Assembly: GCA_030833315.1 (NCBI GenBank)
Contig: JAURHM010000029.1
Location: 1-39,940 of the forward strand
Direction: 5' to 3'
DNA length: 39,940 nucleotides
DNA from: Burkholderiales bacterium
GTDB taxonomy: Bacteria; Pseudomonadota; Gammaproteobacteria; Burkholderiales; SG8-41
A program made the position numbers and the translations under genes. The first letter of the stretch is position 1; each line of letters starts with the position of its first letter. The notes under the pieces were generated by a model, which ran no database searches, had not been told where the DNA came from, and worked only from the letters and a program-made list of their open reading frames with translations. This document shows positions 7,586-30,642 of this stretch, piece after piece.

Positions 7586-8998
7586 ATGAATACGATCAAT
7601 CCCACAACATTGCAAATCATCGGGGCCGTGCTGTTCGGCCTTGCCATTGCACATACCTTCGCGACGCGCTACTTCGAGCGTCTCGCACATACCGATCGCG
7701 CGCATTCAGGCCTGTGGCATCTGCTGGGTGAGGTCGAGGCGGTATTCGGTTTCTGGGCGCTGTTGCTGCTCGGATTCATGACGCTGGCCTGGGGCTGGGG
7801 CGGTATGACCGCTTATCTCGATGATCGGCGGTTCATCGAACCGATGTTCGTGTTTGTGATCATGGTGATCGCCGCGAGCCGGCCGATCACTCAGTTCACT
7901 TATGATGTAGTCCAGATTTCTGCAGGCGCGATGCCGCTTCAGCGCAGCCTGGCGATGTTTTTCCTGAGTCTGTCTCTGGTGCCGATGCTGGGCTCCATCA
8001 TTACCGAGCCGGCGGCCATGACCATTGCCGCGCTGATGCTGCGCGACGGAGTGTTTGCGCAGAACATTTCCACCCGCATCAAGTACGCCACCATCGCCGT
8101 ATTGTTCGTCAATGTGTCGATCGGTGGCGCGTTGACCAATTTTGCTGCGCCGCCGGTGCTGATGGTAGCGGCAAAATGGGATTGGAGCAGCGCTTTCATG
8201 TTTGCGACATTCGGCTGGAAAGCGGCGTTCGCCGTGCTCATCAACGCAGGCCTTCTGACCATCCTGTTCCATCGTGAGCTCGAGCAGGCCGCCGCTACCG
8301 ATTCGGTGATGCGGCGTCCGACGCGTACATCGCGTGTACCGGGTGTGTTCGTCGCGTTCAACCTCGTGCTGCTTGGCGGTGTGGTTTTTGCGAACCATGA
8401 TCCGGAAGTGTTCATGGGCCTGTTCCTGCTGTTCCTGGGGCTGGCCGAGGCTTACAAACGGCATCATGACCGACTGATGATCCGCGAGGCGCTGATGGTG
8501 GCGTTCTTCCTGGCCGGTCTTGTGGTGCTGGGCGGCAAGCAGCAGTGGTGGTTGCAGGAACTGCTGGAAGGCATGAGCGGTTCGACGCTGTTTGCCGGTG
8601 CAACCCTGCTCACTGCGGTTACGGACAATGCCGCGCTGACCTATCTTGGTTCACTGGTTGAAGGCATCAGCGATGAATTCAAGTATGCACTGGTGGCGGG
8701 TGCGCTCGCGGGTGGTGGCCTTACCGTGATAGCCAATGCGCCGAACCCGGCAGGCTATGCAATCCTCAAGGATCGTTTTGAAGACCATTCGATTAACTTG
8801 TTCGGGCTGTTTGCGGCTGCGGTACCGCCGACGCTGGTTGCGGTGTTTTGCCTGTGGGGGCTGAATCATCTGGCTTATGAGATGTTCAGCCTCGCGGCCT
8901 GGCGGGACTGGTTTGCCGGCGTGGACCGTTCGTTCGCCTTCCTGCTGTTGCTTCCGGTGGTGGTCGCAGCGGTCGGACTGTGGTCCGTGCGGCGGTAA
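7586..8998 (+). CDS. putative Na+/H+ antiporter family membrane protein
   Basis: 470-residue polytopic inner-membrane protein with about 11-13 hydrophobic segments. It resembles the putative Na+/H+ antiporter group in the ion-transporter superfamily. Recognisable stretches are the conserved SIITEPAAMTIAALMLRDGV, a helix-breaking loop with an acidic residue, and in the second half LLTAVTDNAALTYLGSLVEG, the same kind of loop, giving an inverted-repeat look. The start at ATG 7586 follows GGGAGGAA (7577-7583); a longer in-frame ATG at 7526 lacks a good ribosome site. It is transcribed divergently from the kinase/regulator pair, 141 bp apart, so it may be their target. The transported ion is not established by sequence. 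Confidence 0.82.
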   Translation: MNTINPTTLQIIGAVLFGLAIAHTFATRYFERLAHTDRAHSGLWHLLGEVEAVFGFWALLLLGFMTLAWGWGGMTAYLDDRRFIEPMFVFVIMVIAASRPITQFTYDVVQISAGAMPLQRSLAMFFLSLSLVPMLGSIITEPAAMTIAALMLRDGVFAQNISTRIKYATIAVLFVNVSIGGALTNFAAPPVLMVAAKWDWSSAFMFATFGWKAAFAVLINAGLLTILFHRELEQAAATDSVMRRPTRTSRVPGVFVAFNLVLLGGVVFANHDPEVFMGLFLLFLGLAEAYKRHHDRLMIREALMVAFFLAGLVVLGGKQQWWLQELLEGMSGSTLFAGATLLTAVTDNAALTYLGSLVEGISDEFKYALVAGALAGGGLTVIANAPNPAGYAILKDRFEDHSINLFGLFAAAVPPTLVAVFCLWGLNHLAYEMFSLAAWRDWFAGVDRSFAFLLLLPVVVAAVGLWSVRR

Positions 8999-9036
8999 TC
9001 AGCGGGTCGGAGTCAGGACTGAGTCAGTACTGAACG

Positions 9037-9067
9037 AAAAAAGCCCGGCTGAGCCGGGCTTTTTTTT
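9037..9067. terminator. bidirectional Rho-independent terminator
   Basis: A GC-rich hairpin (AGCCCGG, loop CTGAG, CCGGGCT at 9042-9060) is flanked by an A-run on the left and a run of eight T on the right. It can therefore stop transcription from both the antiporter gene on the left and the convergent DUF1080 lipoprotein gene on the right. Confidence 0.92.
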
Positions 9068-9081
9068 GGTTGCAGCCGTCT

Positions 9082-9687
9082 TTACAGCGGCTTGATCAAC
9101 AACTTGCGCCATTTGATGGCACCGCCGGGAATGCCGTTGGCGCCCGTCGAATATTGCAGCGAGAACGGACCTTCCTTGAACTGGCTGTTGTTCATGCTGG
9201 AAGTGACCGCGCCATTGAGTGCGACAGTGACATCGCTGCCTTTGACGTAAATTTCATAGGTGTTCCATTTGCCGCCGGCCTTGGGCGGCGGATTGCCAAC
9301 ACGGGCGAAGTCGACGATCGCACCGGTGCTGTATTCCTGGCCGGGGCGCTGGTCAAAAATATTCACTTCGTATGAATTGTTGGCGCCGATCTGTTTCGGA
9401 TTCTGCGCGCGCAGGAACAGGCCGCTGTTGGTGGTGTGGTCGGCCCAGAATTCGGCATAGATCTGGAAATCCTTATACGACTGCTTGGTCACCAGATGGC
9501 CGCCTTTGCCTTTGTCGGCAACGATCAGCCCGCCTTCCGTGCGCCAGTTGGCGTCGCCGATGCGGTCAAAATTTTCCAGGCCTTTTCCGTCTTCGATCAA
9601 CGCAACCCAGCCGGCCGAAGGCGTATGGGCGCAACCGGTGATGAACAGTGCGAAAGCGAGCGCGAACGGTGCGAACAGGCGTTTCAT
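9082..9687 (-). CDS. DUF1080 (3-keto-disaccharide hydrolase-like) lipoprotein
   Basis: 201-residue predicted lipoprotein. The signal peptide ends in the lipobox ITGC (Cys19), so the protein is likely anchored by lipid in the inner or outer membrane. The mature part is a single concanavalin-like beta-sandwich of the DUF1080 type, with FLRAQNPKQIGANNSYEVNI, QEYSTGAIVDFA and WNTYEIYVKGSDVTVALNG. Family members act on or bind carbohydrates; some are 3-keto-disaccharide hydrolases. The start at 9687 is supported by GGGGGAGA upstream; the frame stays open further but without signal-peptide character. It stands alone between a terminator and the divergent Bug gene, so its partner pathway is not visible. 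Confidence 0.85.
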   Translation of the reverse strand: MKRLFAPFALAFALFITGCAHTPSAGWVALIEDGKGLENFDRIGDANWRTEGGLIVADKGKGGHLVTKQSYKDFQIYAEFWADHTTNSGLFLRAQNPKQIGANNSYEVNIFDQRPGQEYSTGAIVDFARVGNPPPKAGGKWNTYEIYVKGSDVTVALNGAVTSSMNNSQFKEGPFSLQYSTGANGIPGGAIKWRKLLIKPL

Positions 9688-9828
9688 ATTATTGGTCTCC
9701 CCCAGATTAGCCCCGACCGGACGGCCGGCGACAAGCGGCGATTTTGCGCCGCCTGAATGCTTTGTCAAGAAGCGGCGATGTGCGTCTGCCGCATTTTCCG
9801 GCGCCCGTCGCCTGCACCCGGCGGTGGC

Positions 9829-9843
9829 TCATGTCATACATGA
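9829..9843. promoter_or_regulatory. candidate operator in the intergenic region before a Bug receptor gene
   Basis: A perfect inverted repeat TCATGT-cat-ACATGA lies 60 bp upstream of the ATG at 9904, in the divergent intergenic region between the DUF1080 gene and the Bug receptor. The GT-N3-AC core resembles sites bound by GntR-family regulators, which often control carboxylate uptake. Short palindromes of this size arise by chance, so this is a weak call. Confidence 0.3.
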
Positions 9844-9903
9844 TAAGCTCGGAAAAAGCGCAGTGGTTTCAAATTGTTATCCGCTAGGGGAGTTCCGTTG
9901 CAC

Positions 9904-10878
9904 ATGAAAAAAGTCATCCTGCTGGCGTTGGTGCTGGCAATGCAGTCCGTGTTTGCAGTGCAGGCAGCAGATGTTGCCGGCGATTATCCGCGTCGTTCGG
10001 TGCGCTTCATTGTTCCATTTGTTCCGGGCGCAGGTACTGACCTCACGACTCGGACGGTGGCCAAAAAGCTGACTGAAACACATGGACAGCAATTCATTGC
10101 CGATAACCGTGCGGGTGCTGCTGGCTCCATTGGCGCGGATATCGCCGCGAAGGCCAATCCGGATGGTTACACCATTTGCCTGATTTCCTCTGGGCATACG
10201 GTGCTTTCGGCGACGAATGACAAATTGCCTTATGACCTGGAGAAGGATCTGCATGCGGTGTCGCAGGTATCGACGCTGTTCTATGTGCTGACCGTGAATC
10301 CGTCATTTCCCGCGAAAACGGTCAAGGAACTGATCGCCTATGCCAAGGCGAACCCCGGCAAGGTTAACCTGGGGTCATCAGGCACCGGCGCCTTGCAGCA
10401 TTTTGCCGGTGAGATGCTGGCCTATCAGGCTGGCGTGAAATTCACCCATGTGCCCTATAAAGGCGGTGCTGCGTCGCTGGCGGCGGTGATGGCCGGCGAA
10501 GTGCAGATGAGTTTCACCACGCTGCTCAGCGCACGGCCACATATGTCTTCCGGAAAAATCCGCATTCTCGGCATCACTGCGGGCAAGCGCTCGCCGGCGA
10601 TTCCCGACATTCCCACCATTGCCGAATCCGGTGTGCCGGGATTCGAGGCCAATCAGTGGTATGGCGTCGTGACTTCCGGCAAGGTGCCGATGCCCGTCGT
10701 CAACAGGCTGTCAGCGATGCTCAAGGAAGCGGTGAATTCGCCGGATGTGGTGGAGCGGCTCGCGGCCGATGGTTCAACGCCGCTGACCAGTACACCGGCG
10801 CAGTTCAAGTCGCATATCAGTTCCGAAATCAGCAAGTGGCGCCGTCTGGTCAAGGATGCCGGACTGCAGATGAACTGA
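9904..10878 (+). CDS. Bug-family (TctC-like) periplasmic receptor
   Basis: 324-residue periplasmic carboxylate-type receptor. The signal peptide (MKKVILLALVLAMQSVFAVQ) is cut near AQA/AD at residues 21-22. The mature protein opens with the family pattern DYPRRSVRFIVPFVPGAGTD, followed later by THVPYKGGAASLAAVMAGEV. Start at ATG 9904 with AGGGGAG about 11 nt upstream; a TTG two codons earlier is also possible. It has no adjacent TctAB. The convergent neighbour is a citryl-CoA lyase-like gene, and an MmgE/PrpD gene follows, suggesting a citrate- or methylcitrate-like acid as ligand, which is only inferred. This is the second of three such receptors in the window. Confidence 0.92.
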   Translation: MKKVILLALVLAMQSVFAVQAADVAGDYPRRSVRFIVPFVPGAGTDLTTRTVAKKLTETHGQQFIADNRAGAAGSIGADIAAKANPDGYTICLISSGHTVLSATNDKLPYDLEKDLHAVSQVSTLFYVLTVNPSFPAKTVKELIAYAKANPGKVNLGSSGTGALQHFAGEMLAYQAGVKFTHVPYKGGAASLAAVMAGEVQMSFTTLLSARPHMSSGKIRILGITAGKRSPAIPDIPTIAESGVPGFEANQWYGVVTSGKVPMPVVNRLSAMLKEAVNSPDVVERLAADGSTPLTSTPAQFKSHISSEISKWRRLVKDAGLQMN

Positions 10879-18155: not shown

Positions 18156-19667
18156 ATGGACGTATTAGCCAATCTCGGTCACGGCTTCATTGTTGCTCTG
18201 GAGCCGCTGAACCTGTTCTGGTGTTTCGCCGGAGTGTTCCTCGGAACCGTGGTCGGCGTGATGCCGGGCCTCGGACCGGCGGCGACCATTGCCATGCTGC
18301 TGCCGCTGACCTTCAAGATGCCGCCGACCAGTGCGCTGATCATGCTGGCGGGCATTTATTACGGCGCCAAATACGGCGGCTCGACGACGGCCATTTTGCT
18401 CAATGTACCGGGCGAATCGGCTTCAGTGGTGACCTGTCTCGACGGTTACCAGATGGCACGCAAAGGCCGCGCCGGTGCGGCGCTGGGTATTGCAGCGATT
18501 GCATCGTTCATTGCGGGCACGGTTGGCGTAGTGGCGCTGATGCTGGTGGCGCCGCCGCTGGCCAAATTCGGTCTCGCTTTCAGCTCACCGGAATATTTCG
18601 CGCTGATGGTGCTGGGTCTGGCGATGGTGGTGCTGCTGGCCGGAGAATCGCTGGTCAAGGCGCTGCTGGCGATGCTGGTCGGGCTGTGGATCGCCGGCAT
18701 GGGCATCGACCTGTTCAGCGATGCCTCGCGCTTCACCTTCGGTAACAGCGAGATGCTCGACGGCGTGGATTTTGTGATCGTCGCCATCGGTGTGTTCGCG
18801 TTGAGCGAAGTGTTCGCCAATATGGAGCAGCGCGAAGAGGGCACGATGCTGCCGGTACCCAAAGGCCTGCGTAACCTGCTGCCGACGATGGCCGAGCTCA
18901 AGGCCTGTCGCTTTGCCTTTCTCAACGGTTCCGTAGTCGGATTCATCATCGGTGTGCTGCCCGGCGCCGGTTCGACCATCGCGTCGTTCATTTCGTACGG
19001 TCTGGAAAAGGCAGTATCGAAACATCCTGAGAAATTCGGCACCGGCGTTCCGGAGGGTGTTGCTGCACCGGAAGGCGCCAACAACTCCGAGACCGGCGGC
19101 GCGCTGGTGCCGCTGCTGACGCTGGGCATTCCCGGTTCCGGCACCACGGCGATCCTGCTCGCGGCGTTTGTGCTGTGGGGATTGAAGCCCGGTCCCTTGA
19201 TGATCCAGGACAATCCCGAGCTGTTCTGGGGGCTGGTGGCCAGCATGTATGTCGGCAACGTGATGCTGCTGGTGCTCAACCTGCCGCTGATTCCGCTGTT
19301 TGCGCAAATTCTCAAACTGCCGTCGTACCTGCTGTATCCGATCATCCTCGGCATTTCGCTGGTCGGCGTTTACACCGTGTCGAGCAGCCTGTTTGACTGC
19401 TATATGCTGGCCGCCTTCGGTCTGCTGGGTTACCTGATGCGGCGTCTGGATTATCCTTCGGCGCCGCTGATTCTCGGCCTGGTGCTCGGCGACGCCATGG
19501 AACGCGCGCTGCGCCAGTCGCTGATGATGTCGCAGGGGGATCTGGGCATTCTGGTATCCCGGCCGATTTCGGCCACAATGCTGGTGCTGGCGGTGTTGCT
19601 GCTGATCATGCCGCTGTTCCGGAAGTTCAATTCCTGGCGGGTCAGGGCAATCGAGGAAAACGGCTGA
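18156..19667 (+). CDS. tctA: TctA-family permease of a tripartite tricarboxylate transporter
   Basis: 503-residue large permease with about 12 transmembrane segments and typical length. Hallmark stretches are GTVVGVMPGLGPAATIAMLL and KYGGSTTAILLNVPGESASV in the first half, repeated in spirit by GVLPGAGSTIASFISYGLEK and TLGIPGSGTTAILLAAFVLW in the second. It is the membrane translocation subunit, driven by a cation gradient, for carboxylates brought by the periplasmic receptor. The operon order ModA-like, TctB, TctA, TctC gives one complete TTT system. The ligand is not identifiable from sequence. Confidence 0.94.
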   Translation: MDVLANLGHGFIVALEPLNLFWCFAGVFLGTVVGVMPGLGPAATIAMLLPLTFKMPPTSALIMLAGIYYGAKYGGSTTAILLNVPGESASVVTCLDGYQMARKGRAGAALGIAAIASFIAGTVGVVALMLVAPPLAKFGLAFSSPEYFALMVLGLAMVVLLAGESLVKALLAMLVGLWIAGMGIDLFSDASRFTFGNSEMLDGVDFVIVAIGVFALSEVFANMEQREEGTMLPVPKGLRNLLPTMAELKACRFAFLNGSVVGFIIGVLPGAGSTIASFISYGLEKAVSKHPEKFGTGVPEGVAAPEGANNSETGGALVPLLTLGIPGSGTTAILLAAFVLWGLKPGPLMIQDNPELFWGLVASMYVGNVMLLVLNLPLIPLFAQILKLPSYLLYPIILGISLVGVYTVSSSLFDCYMLAAFGLLGYLMRRLDYPSAPLILGLVLGDAMERALRQSLMMSQGDLGILVSRPISATMLVLAVLLLIMPLFRKFNSWRVRAIEENG

Positions 19668-19677
19668 GCGATTCTTA

Positions 19678-19712
19678 ATTCAGCTGAATATTCAACGGCA
19701 AACAATGCCGTT
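19678..19712. promoter_or_regulatory. palindrome and hairpin between tctA and the receptor gene
   Basis: The 67-bp gap holds the palindrome ATTCAGCTGAAT (19678-19689), and AACGGCA-aacaa-TGCCGTT (19694-19712) can form a 7-bp hairpin, followed by GAGGAG and the receptor ATG. Such hairpins often stabilise the receptor message or form an operator. No T-run follows, so it is not a terminator. Palindromes this short also occur by chance. Confidence 0.35.
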
Positions 19713-19734
19713 CAATTTACGAGGAGAAGTGATC

Positions 19735-20709
19735 ATGACATTACGCACGTCCATCATCATGGCCGCCTGCGCCGCAGCTCTGGCGGCAGGGCCTGCTTGG
19801 GCACAGTTCAAGCCGACCAAGCCTGTTGAAATCGTGGTGCATACCGGTCCCGGAGGCGGCGCCGATGTACTGGCCCGCTTCATGACCCAGCTGATTGAAA
19901 AGGAAAACCTTGCGCCGGTGCGCTTCCAGGTCAACAACCGCGACGGTGGCGGAGGTCTGCGCGCCATGGCTTATGTCGCCGAGAAAAAAGGCGATACCCA
20001 CACCATCGCCATTTTCACCGGCAACTGGCTGACCAATCCGCTGGTGCGTGCCGAGGCCAAGTTCACGCTGAAGGACATGCAGCCTGTCGCACGCCTGGTG
20101 CTGGAGCCGGCCGTGGTAGCGGTGAAGGCCGATGCGCCGTTCAAGACCATGAAGGACTTCATTGAAGCGGCGAAAAAAACGCCGGGCACGCTGAAGCAAT
20201 CCGGCGGTTCCCAGACCAGTCGCGACAACGTGGTGCGTCAATTGCTGATGAAATCCACCGGTGCCAACTGGGCCTATATCTCCTTCCCGGGTGGCGGCGA
20301 ACGTATTGCCGCGCTGCTGGGCGGTCACGTCAACATGATGGTGATCGAGCCGCAGGAAGCCGGTGAGCACATCAAGGCTGGCAACATGCGCGTGATTGCG
20401 CAGGTCGCTGAAAAGCGCCTCGCGCCTTACCCGAATGTTCCGACGCTGAAAGAAGCCGGCTATGAAATTCCCAATGTGCCGCAGGTGCGCGGCGTGGTGA
20501 TGCCGTCTGGCGTAGCGCCGGATGTCGTGGCCTATTACGAAGACCTGTTCCAGCGCATGGTGAAAACGCCGACCTGGCGCAAGTATCTGGAAGATCAGCA
20601 GTTTGAAGACGGCTTCCAGAAGTCGGTCGAGCTTGGCAAATTCTTCGACACCTTCACCAACCAGATGCGCGAAATCCTGAAAGAGGCGGGCACCCCGGTC
20701 GTACGCTGA
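19735..20709 (+). CDS. tctC: Bug/TctC receptor of the tripartite tricarboxylate transporter
   Basis: 324-residue periplasmic receptor. The signal peptide is cut at AWA-QFK after residue 23. The mature start PTKPVEIVVHTGPGGGADVL is a more diverged version of the Bug ligand-site loop, with several extra glycines (VNNRDGGGGLRAMAYVAEKK). Start at ATG 19735 is supported by GAGGAG at 19721-19726. It lies 67 bp after tctA, which is separated from it only by a hairpin, so it is the receptor of this TTT system. A terminator follows the gene. Ligand unknown. Confidence 0.9.
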   Translation: MTLRTSIIMAACAAALAAGPAWAQFKPTKPVEIVVHTGPGGGADVLARFMTQLIEKENLAPVRFQVNNRDGGGGLRAMAYVAEKKGDTHTIAIFTGNWLTNPLVRAEAKFTLKDMQPVARLVLEPAVVAVKADAPFKTMKDFIEAAKKTPGTLKQSGGSQTSRDNVVRQLLMKSTGANWAYISFPGGGERIAALLGGHVNMMVIEPQEAGEHIKAGNMRVIAQVAEKRLAPYPNVPTLKEAGYEIPNVPQVRGVVMPSGVAPDVVAYYEDLFQRMVKTPTWRKYLEDQQFEDGFQKSVELGKFFDTFTNQMREILKEAGTPVVR

Positions 20710-20753
20710 CCGGCCCTGCGAATGCGTGGCTGCTGATTGCAGTCACGCCCGAC

Positions 20754-20778
20754 ACGGGGGTGAAAGCCCCCGTTTTTT
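20754..20778 (+). terminator. Rho-independent terminator after the TTT operon
   Basis: Hairpin ACGGGGG, loop TGAAAG, CCCCCGT (20754-20773), followed by a run of six T (20773-20778). It sits 45 bp after the TctC stop and about 20 bp before the next ATG, so the MmgE/PrpD gene has its own start of transcription or depends on read-through. Confidence 0.88.
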
Positions 20779-20798
20779 GACCTGTAGCGGATGAAACA

Positions 20799-22172
20799 AT
20801 GAGTGAAAAACTGCCTGAAGTCGCGGTCGCCGAGCGGCTCGCCGAACAAACCCTGGCCCTGAACGTCGATGCCATTCCCGCGGAAGTGCTCGCACGTGCC
20901 GAAGAACTGCTCATTGATGTGGTCGGCCTCTGTGTGGCGGCGCGCAATACCGATTACATCAAGGCGGTGATTGCCGGCGTCGATGCAGGCGGACCGTGCA
21001 CGGCAATAGGTCATACCCAGACTTTCTCGGCAGAAGCCGCGGCGCTGATCAACGGCACTGCGACGCACGGCGAGGATTTTGACGACACCTTCGAAGGTGG
21101 TCCGGTGCATTCGAGCACGGTGATCGGTCCGGCAGTGCTGGCGGCGGCGGAGCGTTTCGGATGCGACGGGCGCGACGTGCTGGCAGGATTTGTCGCCGGC
21201 GTTGAAATGCTGTGCAGGATGTCGATGGTGATCCCGAAGGCCATACACAAATCCGGTTTTCATCCGACGGCAGTGCTTGGCGCAATGGGTGCGACGCTGG
21301 CGGTGGCGCGGACGTTGAGGCTGAACAAGCAGCAGACGGTCGATGCACTGGGCATTGCCGGCAGCATGGCCAGCGGCATCATTGAATATCTCGCTGAAGG
21401 GGCTTGGACCAAACGCATGCACGCCGGCTGGGCAGCGCAGGTGGGCATACAGGCTGCACGTTTCGGTCAGCAGGGTTTTCTCGGGCCGCGTACGGTTTTT
21501 GAAGGCACTCATGGCTTGTATTACGCCTTTGCGCGTTCCGCGGCCGGTGATTACGACGTGCTGACCCGGGATTTCGGCAAGGACTGGTATATGTCGCGCA
21601 TCACCTTCAAGCCCTATGCGACGGGCACGATGAACCAGCCTTATGCCGACTGCGCGCTGCGCCTGGCGAAAAAAGGTTTTTCCGCGGAAGACGTGGTCGA
21701 TGTGCTCTGCGAAACCGCCGAAGGTTATGTGCACCGGCTGTGGGATCCGCTGCCGGCCAAACAGCGCCCGGCCAATGAATACGCCGCCAAGTTCAGCGCA
21801 CCGTTCAACATCGCCGTGGCTTTTGTCACGGGCGGGGCGGGGTTGGCGGCATTCACCGAAAAGACCGTGCGCGATGAGCGCATCCTCGCGCTGGCATCGA
21901 AAGTGAAATACGTCGTCGATCCGAATAATCCCTATCCCAAGGCCTACACCGGCCACGTGCGGATGACGCTGAAAGACGGAAGGGTTTTCGAGGAGCGTCA
22001 GCCGCATATCCGCGGTGGTGCACAGGAGCCGCTGACCCGTGCCGAGATCGAGGATAAATGCCGTCGCAACTGCGCCTTTGGCGGCTGGGGCGAGCAGCAG
22101 ATCTCAGCCTTCCTGGAGTCAGTGCCGGGCCTGCTCAAGGGTAAGCCGGATCTGAAGGCATTGCGCGCCTGA
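20799..22172 (+). CDS. MmgE/PrpD family protein
   Basis: 457-residue member of the MmgE/PrpD superfamily, the second in this window and clearly not a recent copy of the first. Visible landmarks are ELLIDVVGLCVAARNTDYIK in the helical domain, the active-site stretch TATHGEDFDDTFEGGPVHSS, GFVAGVEMLCRMSMVIPKAI, and ITFKPYATGTMNQPYADCAL in the C-terminal domain. Members dehydrate, decarboxylate or isomerise citrate-like acids; the reaction here is unknown. It follows the TTT operon beyond a terminator, so the imported ligand may be its substrate. The DsbA-like gene begins 62 bp after the stop. Confidence 0.88.
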   Translation: MSEKLPEVAVAERLAEQTLALNVDAIPAEVLARAEELLIDVVGLCVAARNTDYIKAVIAGVDAGGPCTAIGHTQTFSAEAAALINGTATHGEDFDDTFEGGPVHSSTVIGPAVLAAAERFGCDGRDVLAGFVAGVEMLCRMSMVIPKAIHKSGFHPTAVLGAMGATLAVARTLRLNKQQTVDALGIAGSMASGIIEYLAEGAWTKRMHAGWAAQVGIQAARFGQQGFLGPRTVFEGTHGLYYAFARSAAGDYDVLTRDFGKDWYMSRITFKPYATGTMNQPYADCALRLAKKGFSAEDVVDVLCETAEGYVHRLWDPLPAKQRPANEYAAKFSAPFNIAVAFVTGGAGLAAFTEKTVRDERILALASKVKYVVDPNNPYPKAYTGHVRMTLKDGRVFEERQPHIRGGAQEPLTRAEIEDKCRRNCAFGGWGEQQISAFLESVPGLLKGKPDLKALRA

Positions 22173-22234
22173 GGAGGCTGGAATAAAGTATCAATAAAAA
22201 CAGGTAGTTACCATAAACCTCACTGGGGATCGTC

Positions 22235-22882
22235 ATGAGCCAGGACATCAGCATCGACATCGTTTCCGACGTGGTTTGACCCTGGTGCTTCATCGGCAAG
22301 CGCAAGCTGGAAATCGCGCTGCAGCAGTTCGCAAAACTGCACCCCGATGAGCATAAACCGGCCGTGCGCTGGTTGCCGTTCCAGTTGAATCCCGATTTGC
22401 CCGCCATCGGCATTTCGCGCGCGGATTACATCCTGCGCAAATTCGGCGAGCGCGACAGCTCACGCTATAAACGTGTGGCGCTGGTCGGCAAGAGTGTGGG
22501 CCTCGACATGAATTTCGATGCGATAAAGGTGCAGCCGAATACGGTAAAGGCGCACCGGCTGATGCACCGTGCCGGTGAACAGGGTTTGCAGGATGCGATG
22601 GCCGAAGCGTTGTTCCGCGCTTATTTCATCGAGGGCGCCGACCTGACGAACAGTGCGGTACTGGCGGATTACGCAACACAGGCCGGACTGGATCAAGCAG
22701 AGACCCTGGCTTATCTGGACAGCGATGCCGATGCCGATCTGATCCGCAGTGCTGATCAGGAAGCACGTCAGGTCGGTATCGAAGGCGTGCCGTTTTTCAT
22801 CATCAACCGCACCATCGGCATTTCCGGCGCGCAGGACCCGGAAGTGTTGTTGCAGGCGATGGAGCAGGCCAGGGCGGGCTAG
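22235..22882 (+). CDS. DsbA/FrnE-family thiol oxidoreductase with in-frame TGA, candidate selenoprotein (U-P-W-C)
   Basis: The frame from ATG 22235 (GGGG six to nine nt upstream) reads MSQDISIDIVSDVV, TGA, PWCFIGKRKLE, and then runs without another stop to TAG at 22880-22882: 215 codons including the TGA. The downstream part is a full FrnE-type DsbA protein: VRWLPFQLNPDLPAIGIS, the helical insert, and EGVPFFIINRTIGISGAQDP with the cis-proline loop (P186). In relatives the sequence at the TGA is VCPWC; here the codon for the first active-site cysteine (residue 15) is TGA while C18 is kept. This is the exact position where selenocysteine gives a UxxC redox site. The alternatives, a nonsense mutation or base error TGC to TGA, would leave a pseudogene; the clean downstream frame argues against old decay. 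It would act as a cytoplasmic redox enzyme, since no signal peptide is present. Confidence 0.75.
22282..22306 (+). promoter_or_regulatory. candidate bacterial SECIS hairpin directly after the in-frame TGA
   Basis: Two bases after UGA (22277-22279), CUGGUGCUU (22282-22290) can pair with AAGCGCAAG (22298-22306), with one G-A mismatch and one G-U pair, around the loop CAUCGGC. A mutually exclusive alternative pairs AGCGC (22299-22303) with GCGCU (22316-22320) and has a 12-nt loop starting 25 nt after the UGA. Bacterial SECIS elements are such stem-loops within the coding region just 3' of UGA. The first loop is a little closer to UGA than in the E. coli fdhF element, and neither loop starts with the usual G. 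Pairing was done by eye. Confidence 0.4.
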
Positions 22883-27707: not shown

Positions 27708-27757
27708 GGGGCAAACCCTACAATTCGCGCGGTAATCACCGACGAATGGTTTGCCCC
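27708..27757. promoter_or_regulatory. inverted repeat just upstream of the soeA start
   Basis: GGGGCAAACC (27708-27717) and GGTTTGCCCC (27748-27757) are perfect 10-bp complements separated by 30 bp. The right arm ends two bases before the soeA ATG at 27760, where no normal Shine-Dalgarno is seen. In RNA this would place the start region at the foot of a stem, and in DNA it could be a dimeric operator. A third copy of GGGGCAAACC sits in the gap between lemA and the DUF4139 gene (25358-25367). Confidence 0.4.
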
Positions 27758-27759
27758 CA

Positions 27760-30642
27760 ATGACCGCCAGCGCACAGCCCGCCGCCCGCACCGAAACCCG
27801 CAACACTACCTGTTATATGTGCGCCTGCCGTTGCGGCATCCGCGTACATCTGAAAAACGACGAAGTCCGCTACATCGAGGGCAATCCCGGGCATCCGCTG
27901 AATAAAGGCGTGATCTGCGCCAAGGGCGCATCGGGCATCATGAAGCAGTATTCGCCGGCACGGCTGACCCGGCCGCTGCGACGCAAACCCGGTTCCGAGC
28001 GCGGCGCCGGCGAGTTCGAGCCGATCAGCTGGGATGAAGCCTTCAAGGTCATGGAGGAACGGCTGGGCAAGCTACGTTCCACCGATCCGAAAAAATTCGC
28101 GCTGTTTACCGGTCGCGACCAGATGCAGGCCTTGACCGGCCTGTTCGCACGCCAGTTCGGCACGCCGAACTATGCGGCGCACGGCGGCTTCTGCTCGGTG
28201 AATATGGCCGCGGGCATGATTTACACCATTGGCGGCAGCTTCTGGGAATTCGGTGGTCCGGATCTCGACCGCGCCAAGCTGTTCGTGATGATCGGCACGG
28301 CGGAAGACCATCACTCGAATCCGATGAAGATGGCGATCTCGAAATTCAAGCGTGAAGGCGGTCGCTTCATTTCGATCAATCCGGTGCGTACCGGTTATTC
28401 GGCAGTGGCGGATGAATGGATTCCGATCCGCCCGGGTACGGATGGTGCGCTGCTGCTGGCGCTGTGCCATGAGCTGGTCAAGCTGGGTCTTTACGACCGC
28501 GACTTTCTGGTGCAGTACAGCAACGCCGGTTATCTGGTGAACCTCGATGAAAAGAGCGAAAAGTTCGGCCTGATCGCCTGCGATGAAACCGCGGAAGAGA
28601 AAAATCCGCATCGCAAGCACCAGCAACTGTGGTGGGACCGTCACAGCAAGCGCGCAGTGATCAACCACACCGGTGATTCCGATCCGGCGCTGACCGGCAG
28701 CTACCAATTGCCCGACGGCACGCCGGTAAAACCGGCCTTCGAACTGCTGCGCGAACGGCTCAGCGAATACACGCCGGAGTGGGCTGCAAAAATTACCGGC
28801 ATCGACGCGGCGAAGATCCGCAGCCTGGCGCAGGAGATGGGCGTTACGGCGCGTGATCAAAAAATCGAGTTGCCGATTGCCTGGACTGACAGCTGGGGCC
28901 GCAAGCACGACAAGGTCACCGGCAATCCGGTGGCCTTCCATGCGATGCGCGGTCTCGCGGCGCATTCCAACGGTTTTCATACCATCCGCGCGCTGTCGAT
29001 CCTGATGTCGCTGCTCGGGACCATCGACCGGCCCGGCGGTTTCCGCCACAAGGCGCCGTTCCCGCGCAGCACGCCCCCGGTGTATGCGCGAAACCCCAAC
29101 GATCCGGGTGCGGTGAAACCCGATACGCCGCTGGGCGGTGCGCCGCTGGGATTTCCGGGCGGCCCCGAAGACCTGTTCGTCGATGACAAGGGTGAACCTG
29201 TACGGCTCGACAAGGCCTTCTCCTGGGAGCATCCGCTGGCGGTGCACGGCATGATGCACAACGTGATCACCAATGCATGGAAGGGTGATCCGTACCCGAT
29301 CGATACGCTGATGCTGTTCATGGCGAACATGGCCTGGAACTCGACCATGAACACCAGCGAAGTGCGCAAGATGCTGAACGACAGGGATGCGTCGGGCGAG
29401 TACAAGATTCCCTTCCTGATTGTCTGCGACGCTTTCCAGTCTGAGACCACGGCCTTCGCCGATCTGGTGTTGCCGGATACGACCTATCTCGAACGCCATG
29501 ATGTGATGTCGATGCTGGATAGGCCTATTTCAGAATTCGACGGCCCGGTGGATTCGGTGCGGGTGCCGGTGGTGCCGCCGAAGGGCGAATGCAAACCTTT
29601 CCAGGAAGTGCTGATCGAACTGGCGGGGCGCCTCAAGTTCCCGGCGTTTACCAAACCGGATGGTTCACGCAAGTTCAAGGATTACCCGGACTTCATCACC
29701 AATTTCGAAACCGAACCGGGATCGGGTCAGGGTTTCCTGATCGGCTGGCGCGGCAAGGATGGCGACAAGGCGCTGGTCGGCGAACCCAATCCCAAGCAGT
29801 GGGAGATGTACGCCAAGAACAATTGCGTGTTCCACCACGTGATGCCGGAGTCCTACCAGTACATGCGCAACTGGAATCAGGAATATTCTGAGTGGGCGCA
29901 GAAAATGAAACTGCGGCGCTTTGCCGATCCGGTAATCATCCAGTTGTATGCCGAGGTGCTGCAGCGCTTCCGTCTTGCCGCACGCGGTCAGGGCAAACGC
30001 GTGCCGCCGGTGCACCTGCGTGAACGCATCACCACGTACTTTGATCCGCTGCCGTTTTATTACACGCCGCTGGAAGTGCAATGCACCGACACGGAGAAGT
30101 ATCCGCTGTCGGCGATTACGCAGCGGCCGATGGCGATGTATCACTCCTGGGATTCGCAGAATGCCTGGTTGCGCCAGATTCATGCGCATAACTATTTGTT
30201 CGTCAACGAGAAAACGGCAGCTGATAACGGTATTGCCGACGGCGACTGGATCTGGGTGGAGTCGATGCACGGCCGCGTGCGCTGTATGTGCCGTTGCAGT
30301 AACGCGGTGGAGCCGGGCACGGTGTGGACTTGGAATGCAATCGGCAAGGCGCAGGGCGCCTGGCATCTGTCGCCCGACGCCAATGAGGCGCGCAAGGGCT
30401 TCTTGTTGAATCACCTGATCTCGGAAGAGATTCCGATGGGTGGGGGACGCACCGTTTCCAATTCCGATCCGGTGACGGGGCAGGCCGGCTGGTATGACGT
30501 GCGGGTGCGCATCTGCAAGGCGGAAGCGGGTGAGCCCGAAGAAACCTCACCGCAGTTTGCGCCGCTGCCGGCAGCGCCCGGAACCGGCAAGGTGCGAAAG
30601 CTGTGGCAGGCCTTTGTCGCCGGTAATGGAGATTTCAAATGA
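27760..30642 (+). CDS. soeA: sulfite dehydrogenase (quinone) molybdopterin subunit SoeA
   Basis: 960-residue molybdopterin-guanine-dinucleotide oxidoreductase of the SoeA type. The N-terminal 4Fe-4S site is C18-x2-C21-x3-C25-x27-C53. The Mo-binding region shows AAHGGFCSVNMAAGMIYTIG, with Cys145 as the likely Mo ligand, followed by GTAEDHHSNPMKMAISKFKR and IPIRPGTDGALLLALCHELV. The C-terminal cap domain binds the second pterin. It lacks a Tat signal, consistent with a cytoplasmic SoeABC complex that oxidises sulfite to sulfate and passes electrons to quinone. Start at ATG 27760; a TTG at 27751 would add only MPP. It forms an operon with soeB (28 bp) and soeC. Arsenate, tetrathionate and polysulfide reductases are related but usually have a Tat signal. 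Confidence 0.87.
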   Translation: MTASAQPAARTETRNTTCYMCACRCGIRVHLKNDEVRYIEGNPGHPLNKGVICAKGASGIMKQYSPARLTRPLRRKPGSERGAGEFEPISWDEAFKVMEERLGKLRSTDPKKFALFTGRDQMQALTGLFARQFGTPNYAAHGGFCSVNMAAGMIYTIGGSFWEFGGPDLDRAKLFVMIGTAEDHHSNPMKMAISKFKREGGRFISINPVRTGYSAVADEWIPIRPGTDGALLLALCHELVKLGLYDRDFLVQYSNAGYLVNLDEKSEKFGLIACDETAEEKNPHRKHQQLWWDRHSKRAVINHTGDSDPALTGSYQLPDGTPVKPAFELLRERLSEYTPEWAAKITGIDAAKIRSLAQEMGVTARDQKIELPIAWTDSWGRKHDKVTGNPVAFHAMRGLAAHSNGFHTIRALSILMSLLGTIDRPGGFRHKAPFPRSTPPVYARNPNDPGAVKPDTPLGGAPLGFPGGPEDLFVDDKGEPVRLDKAFSWEHPLAVHGMMHNVITNAWKGDPYPIDTLMLFMANMAWNSTMNTSEVRKMLNDRDASGEYKIPFLIVCDAFQSETTAFADLVLPDTTYLERHDVMSMLDRPISEFDGPVDSVRVPVVPPKGECKPFQEVLIELAGRLKFPAFTKPDGSRKFKDYPDFITNFETEPGSGQGFLIGWRGKDGDKALVGEPNPKQWEMYAKNNCVFHHVMPESYQYMRNWNQEYSEWAQKMKLRRFADPVIIQLYAEVLQRFRLAARGQGKRVPPVHLRERITTYFDPLPFYYTPLEVQCTDTEKYPLSAITQRPMAMYHSWDSQNAWLRQIHAHNYLFVNEKTAADNGIADGDWIWVESMHGRVRCMCRCSNAVEPGTVWTWNAIGKAQGAWHLSPDANEARKGFLLNHLISEEIPMGGGRTVSNSDPVTGQAGWYDVRVRICKAEAGEPEETSPQFAPLPAAPGTGKVRKLWQAFVAGNGDFK

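Follow-up and report, generated by a model that had tools for sequence, protein, structure and literature searches.

The gene at 22235–22882 of the window (the whole stretch of DNA analysed, 39,940 nucleotides) contains one internal stop in its frame, a TGA at codon 15 (VSDVV-U-PWCFIGKRKLE in translation), which raises the question of whether the gene is broken or the stop is read as an amino acid. The TGA occupies the first-Cys position of a CPWC motif, and the only Cys codon of the gene is codon 18. ORF listing under the standard code gave a product of 172 aa from a GTG start (22364–22882), in which the active site is missing. The preliminary description had claimed a single in-frame TGA in place of the first Cys of CPWC, an otherwise intact gene retaining C18 and the Pro loop, and truncation near 22364 with loss of the active site by ordinary gene calling; the translation, the absence of any other stop, the invariance of C18 and P186 in a 36-row alignment and the ORF listing agreed with it on each of these. 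Most likely the apparently broken gene is intact and its internal stop encodes an active-site selenocysteine (Sec). The features concerned are:

22235..22882, + strand: FrnE/DsbA-like gene of 215 codons, stop TAG (Pfam DSBA E 6.4e-42; best solved relative D. radiodurans FrnE)
22277..22279, + strand: TGA within the frame, predicted to encode Sec15 at the first position of the U-P-W-C active site (TGA or Cys across loci)
22286..22288, + strand: Cys18, predicted resolving thiol and sole Cys of the protein (invariant in the 36-row alignment)
22790..22792, + strand: Pro186, predicted cis-Pro opposite the active site (invariant in the 36-row alignment; before model strand 187–190)

With Cys put at residue 15, the product matched Pfam DSBA (PF01323) at 143.9 bits, against a cut-off of 25.6, and the UxxC motif was present as U15-P-W-C18. 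The top match by sequence among solved structures was Deinococcus radiodurans FrnE (E 3.8e-39). An AlphaFold model obtained from 36 window and locus sequences had a mean pLDDT of 96.0, and its five best PDB matches were all D. radiodurans FrnE (DR_0659; 5cnw, 5co3, 5coh, 5cp1 and 5xwh), with TM up to 0.91 and 38% identity. Likeness in sequence (E 1e-26) and fold (TM 0.87) was also found with SCO1869, a putative DsbA oxidoreductase of Streptomyces coelicolor (3gl5). Judged from the model, the fold and the position of the N-terminal CXXC correspond to those of the FrnE subfamily; the position is shared with the CP(W/F)C of D. radiodurans FrnE, the first Cys of which would here be replaced by Sec. 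The residue just before model strand 187–190, P186, is the one that we take to be the expected cis-Pro. Unlike D. radiodurans FrnE, the window protein lacks the C-terminal CXXXXC of many FrnE proteins, the gene having one Cys codon. Since FrnE of D. maricopensis and S. roseofulvus is likewise given without a C-terminal CXXXXC in section 2.4 of PMC8945050, this trait does not define the subfamily. The first strand of the model starts at residue 6 and no signal peptide was apparent in the sequence by eye, so that the protein is probably cytoplasmic.

Across 133 homologous loci, the codon equivalent to codon 15 was TGA in 40 (39 distinct, L057 being treated as a second copy of L029 because the two contigs are equally long), TGC in 65 and TGT in 28, with no other codon; the search motif admits only Sec or Cys at this position, yet all 133 loci gave a match. 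The searches kept the best 80 of 516 relatives (one of the six patterns contains the Cys codon) and 30 loci from each of two genome sets, so that the ratio of 39:93 TGA to Cys does not represent a population frequency. The nearest named record among the best 80 of 516 relatives was a Burkholderiales MAG contig with 88% identity (L057). A sequencing error is improbable as the source of the TGA, since its 39 loci belong to separate assemblies.

In a tree of 132 rows, comprising 132 of the 133 loci (the duplicate L057 omitted), the TGA rows formed one side of a single branch with a support of 99, and in a bootstrapped 71-row tree, which also leaves out the near-copies L028, L030, L033, L035 and L043 and 56 of the 93 Cys rows, they formed one clade (100/97). 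Next to the Sec clade in the larger tree stood Cys forms from f24, f19 and f40. A single change from Cys to Sec would suffice to explain the distribution, provided that the Cys form is ancestral, both trees being unrooted.

The pN/pS ratio in 18 members of the genus was 0.29 before the TGA and 0.25–0.31 after it, and in all 39 TGA genes 0.40 before and 0.22–0.44 after, values that indicate purifying selection on the codons of both sides. Codons 16–29 had the lowest pN of four regions (0.032 in the genus, 0.102 in all 39).

The assembly to which the window belongs (3.10 Mb in 105 contigs, 98.1% complete) contains a tRNA-Sec with anticodon tca and profile matches over the cut-off for selA (570.9 bits), selB (423.2 bits) and selD (414.4 bits), with selA, selB and tRNA-Sec together on contig C3. 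The Sec-decoding gene set selA/selB/selC/selD is therefore complete, and by gene content the cell is able to make selenocysteine. Of 20 matches to TIGR01553 in this genome, searched for a Sec formate dehydrogenase, none was over the cut-off and none had an internal stop. The best of them (L160, on C51), the one match in which the site was read, had the Cys form ICHSTT, its Cys presumably being at the position where Sec-type formate dehydrogenases have Sec. One in-frame TGA was also observed in selD itself (L024, minus strand; C51:34571-35500), in GGGUGCK, so that at least two selenoproteins are predicted in this genome.

The TGA form was found in 19/21 genomes of the genus, 15/16 of the rest of the family and 1/24 of the rest of the order among 61 relatives, and hence in 34 of the 37 genomes of the family overall; the lone genome from the rest of the order (G041) belongs to another family. 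Twelve of these 24 had strong matches that were all uninterrupted, and 11 gave no strong match. Even samples of the order and of the phylum were also searched. In the order sample, 121 of 399 genomes matched at 1e-30, with TGA in 16, namely 12/12 matched genomes of family f1 and 4/4 of f6; one further genome had a TAG in its FrnE match. In the phylum sample, 165 of 398 genomes matched, and TGA occurred only in the window's own genome among the matches listed. A selB over the cut-off was present in 32/35 TGA-form genomes of the relatives set. The exceptions (G003, G010 and G036) are all 74–84% complete; partial selB was seen in G010 and G036, and no selB was found in G003. G029, a member of the family that is 91% complete, had neither the TGA form nor selB over the cut-off, and no FrnE ortholog was found in two genomes of the genus that have selB, G002 (93% complete, 430 contigs) and G009 (79%, 420 contigs). 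A Cys paralogue with CPWC accompanies the TGA form in G027 and G041.

These comparisons upheld what the preliminary description had proposed. It had held that the placement of the TGA is not due to chance and had called for an alignment of homologues, and the homologous codon is TGA or TGC/TGT in 133/133 loci. It had named absence of selABCD, or further stops or frameshifts in close relatives, as grounds for dismissal; all four genes were found, and the relatives listed show the same single TGA and no more stops. In place of the read-level support that it had also asked for, there is the shared TGA of 39 loci in separate assemblies. Its proposal of a selenium-dependent thiol oxidoreductase, with Sec in place of the nucleophilic Cys, is supported by the machinery, the TGA/Cys codon pattern and the relatives.

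A pseudogene, in which a nonsense mutation had fallen by chance on the catalytic Cys, would account for a frame interrupted under the standard code. It would not account for the recurrence of this TGA in 39 distinct loci from two families, the close copies listed having no other stop, nor for purifying selection on both sides of it. An intact close Cys orthologue in the gene's own genome would have favoured a pseudogene, but only a 30% match over residues 119–191 was listed there, and we consider this explanation scarcely conceivable. The GTG at 22364 could in principle serve as a restart, giving a shortened protein without the active site. In that case codons 16–29 would be untranslated, whereas they are the region with the lowest pN, which makes a restart highly improbable. 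It is also very unlikely that the UGA is read as Trp or Cys, or passed by leaky readthrough without SelB, a reading with which the lack of a proven SECIS would agree. TGA terminates 17/25 of the ORFs picked in the window and is thus an ordinary stop in this genome; a full set of sel genes is found and shares the distribution of the TGA form; and the other 93 loci have Cys at this codon. Given one TGA at the catalytic Cys, the sel genes, a codon that is either TGA or Cys, a single clade and purifying selection, we predict with high confidence that codon 15 UGA specifies selenocysteine.

A SECIS element was sought around the codon, and two candidates were obtained from pairing counts:

22285..22303, + strand: candidate SECIS hairpin GUGCUU / AAGCGC directly 3' of the UGA (unproven)
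22270..22318, + strand: longer stem around the UGA, from a genus-only model (unproven)

In the hairpin 95.6% of cells were paired across 34 distinct sequences, against 25–57% in slid controls, and in the longer stem 97.1% across 14 distinct genus sequences; covariation was not above shuffles in either set. The first five pairs of the hairpin were intact in 31/34 distinct Sec and 55/90 distinct Cys sequences (Fisher p 0.0009, kinship ignored), a contrast that shrinks with nearness, since they were also intact in 25/31 Cys sequences drawn from the order and from other Betaproteobacteria. Arg23 was encoded by CGY in 38/39 Sec genes, as compared with 402/546 other Arg codons there, and in 63/86 Cys genes, as compared with 963/1558. 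Single-sequence folds were weaker than shuffles, and synonymous-codon shuffles gave a mean z of −0.26 to −0.57 for Sec and −0.08 to −0.36 for Cys genes. A hand-written bSECIS rule was satisfied by 27/39 Sec and 81/93 Cys genes, with no Sec enrichment, and Rfam on 22150–22500 returned no SECIS match and one snoRNA family match (E 2.5). In the genus, pS of the 14 codons after the TGA was 0.125 against a median of 0.481, the second lowest of 187 overlapping windows. This low synonymous change fits an RNA element and is supporting, not decisive, because the rank was near the middle in three sets of Sec genes outside the genus, and the Cys genes of Rhodocyclales (n = 6) ranked second lowest of 194; the Planctomycetes (n = 6) ranked 14 of 197, weakly, and three other Cys groups ranked higher. 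A SECIS at this gene is plausible but unproven.

In the window's own genome selA and selB are followed in turn by a flavoprotein gene, which comes immediately after selB, by a YaeQ gene and by tRNA-Sec. The flavoprotein gene is located as follows:

L013:7068-7973 (C3:41067-41972): pyridine nucleotide-disulfide oxidoreductase, 302 aa, directly after selB

Its product has a CxxC (CADC) at 134–137 and GGGDSA, both shared with bacterial TrxB (TIGR01292), from which it differs in its linkage to selB and in its score; since the match (E 1.4e-67, 227.6 bits) lies below the curated cut-off of 343.45, it is called thioredoxin reductase (TrxR)-like only. CADC was kept in 29/29 aligned copies, selB-linked and unlinked, L212–L214 (G003, G020 and G010) being counted as linked with selB 3.7–3.8 kb off or beyond the stretch. 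The gene lies directly after selB in 38/41 TGA-form genomes (32/35 of the relatives set and 6/6 further genomes of the order sample); the 32 include G033, in which the end of the contig truncates it. G010 and G020 have it on one contig with selB, at a distance of about 3.7–3.8 kb, and the stretch read around it in G003 contained no selB. Among those genomes of the relatives set that have selB over the cut-off, lie outside the window's family and lack the TGA form, it followed selB in 0/6 (G038, G043, G045, G048, G050 and G059). In G134 two selB-flavoprotein-tRNA-Sec clusters were seen on two contigs (L229, L230), from either two copies or a mixed bin.

At 1e-60 the flavoprotein was matched in 16/16 TGA-form genomes of the order sample and in 11/383 others. 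Reading the neighbourhoods of eight of these 11 (all but G273, G330 and G359) placed the gene next to selB in G358 and next to tRNA-Sec in G137 and G297. Around the copies of G138, G302, G243 and G095 no sel gene was found, and in G170 the contig ends 318 bases upstream of the gene. The FrnE copies of G358 are uninterrupted, G137 and G297 gave no FrnE match at 1e-30, and in G002 the flavoprotein follows selB and no FrnE was found. A flavoprotein paired specifically with Sec-FrnE was considered, and these four genomes weaken it. The gene is better described as a sel-cluster gene of wider use that is present in the TGA-form genomes tested. From its linkage, the flavoprotein may serve as reductant of the Sec enzyme or as a source of selenide; as it stands beside sel genes in four genomes in which no Sec enzyme was found, a partnership is only inferred. 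Thioredoxin reductases can reduce selenite to selenide, and there is a somewhat less than even chance that, Sec-FrnE being a selenoprotein, the selB-linked flavoprotein serves selenium supply instead, for example by providing selenide for SelD. Its position beside selB in G358 and G002 and beside tRNA-Sec in G137 and G297 favours such a role, and its match in every Sec-FrnE genome of the order sample, as against few of the others, speaks against it. Rather tentatively, we propose that the family keeps the Sec apparatus mainly for cytosolic thiol chemistry and not for formate dehydrogenase, a selenol FrnE being reduced by a dedicated NADPH flavoprotein of the sel cluster (selA-selB-trxR-like, then selC). 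No published precedent for such a relay was found in the literature searched, which covered few subscription journals.

In the preferred reading, with Sec at codon 15, the gene product would be a DsbA-like, thioredoxin-fold selenoprotein of the FrnE subfamily, probably cytoplasmic. To judge from the genes present, SelB and tRNA-Sec would decode the UGA; Sec15 would act as the nucleophile and Cys18 as the resolving thiol, the pair cycling between selenol/thiol and selenenylsulfide opposite Pro186. By analogy with FrnE, its putative role is disulfide reduction or isomerisation in the cytoplasm, with electrons that may come from the TrxR-like flavoprotein encoded directly after selB. The Sec form would have had a single origin from the Cys form, if the latter is ancestral, and would then have been kept in the family. 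The partner and substrate assignments are far less sure than Sec at codon 15.

COG2761 is, as we take it, the FrnE group. DsbA-like selenoproteins with a UxxC motif, listed under COG2761, are described from the Sargasso Sea in a paper of 2005 (PMC1088965), the GOS survey gives selenoproteins DsbA 1–3 (PMC2398784), and DsbA-like selenoproteins are reported in 41 organisms (2016, PMC5029168) and in Asgard archaea (PMC11227280); a 2026 review has a 'DsbA-like protein form 1' with PF01323 (PMC13188914). By these published descriptions, PF01323 and Sec as the first residue of UxxC are shared with the protein studied here, and Cys homologues are widespread in both cases. Sec-FrnE is thus an already known type and not a new kind of selenoprotein. 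What is new is the lineage, the keeping of Sec decoding though the one formate dehydrogenase-like site read is Cys, and the TrxR-like gene after selB. A 2006 survey gives FdhA as the sole selenoprotein of the Sec-decoding Betaproteobacteria it covers (PMC1794560), whereas here Sec-FrnE is predicted in such a lineage. No account of this Burkholderiales Sec-FrnE clade was found in the literature searched (few subscription journals covered).

Sec-FrnE thus appears to be kept family-wide in related Burkholderiales-like bacteria. Standard ORF calling loses the active site here and would do the same in relatives that share the TGA. The Sec clade, with its neighbouring Cys rows (f24, f19 and f40) and the CPWC paralogues of G027 and G041, offers a natural Sec/Cys comparison that bears on the advantage a cytoplasmic disulfide reductase would gain from Sec. 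The selB-linked flavoprotein is a candidate electron donor, bearing on the regeneration of FrnE proteins without C-terminal CXXXXC, such as those described in section 2.4 of PMC8945050.

Some minor observations were also made. A second DsbA-like gene in G033 (L197:1338-1919, minus strand), 31% identical, has one in-frame TGA in UPFC and is perhaps another selenoprotein in this genome family. The codon preceding the TGA (22274–22276) was GTT in 29/39 Sec genes as compared with 11/93 Cys genes (mostly GTC, ATC). A molybdopterin oxidoreductase of 963 aa is encoded at 27751–30642 of the window, without an internal stop. Genes for TctC and MmgE/PrpD are found near both the FrnE gene (window 18156–22172) and the sel cluster (L013:284-3415 and 8706-10145), with three TctC genes in the two stretches.
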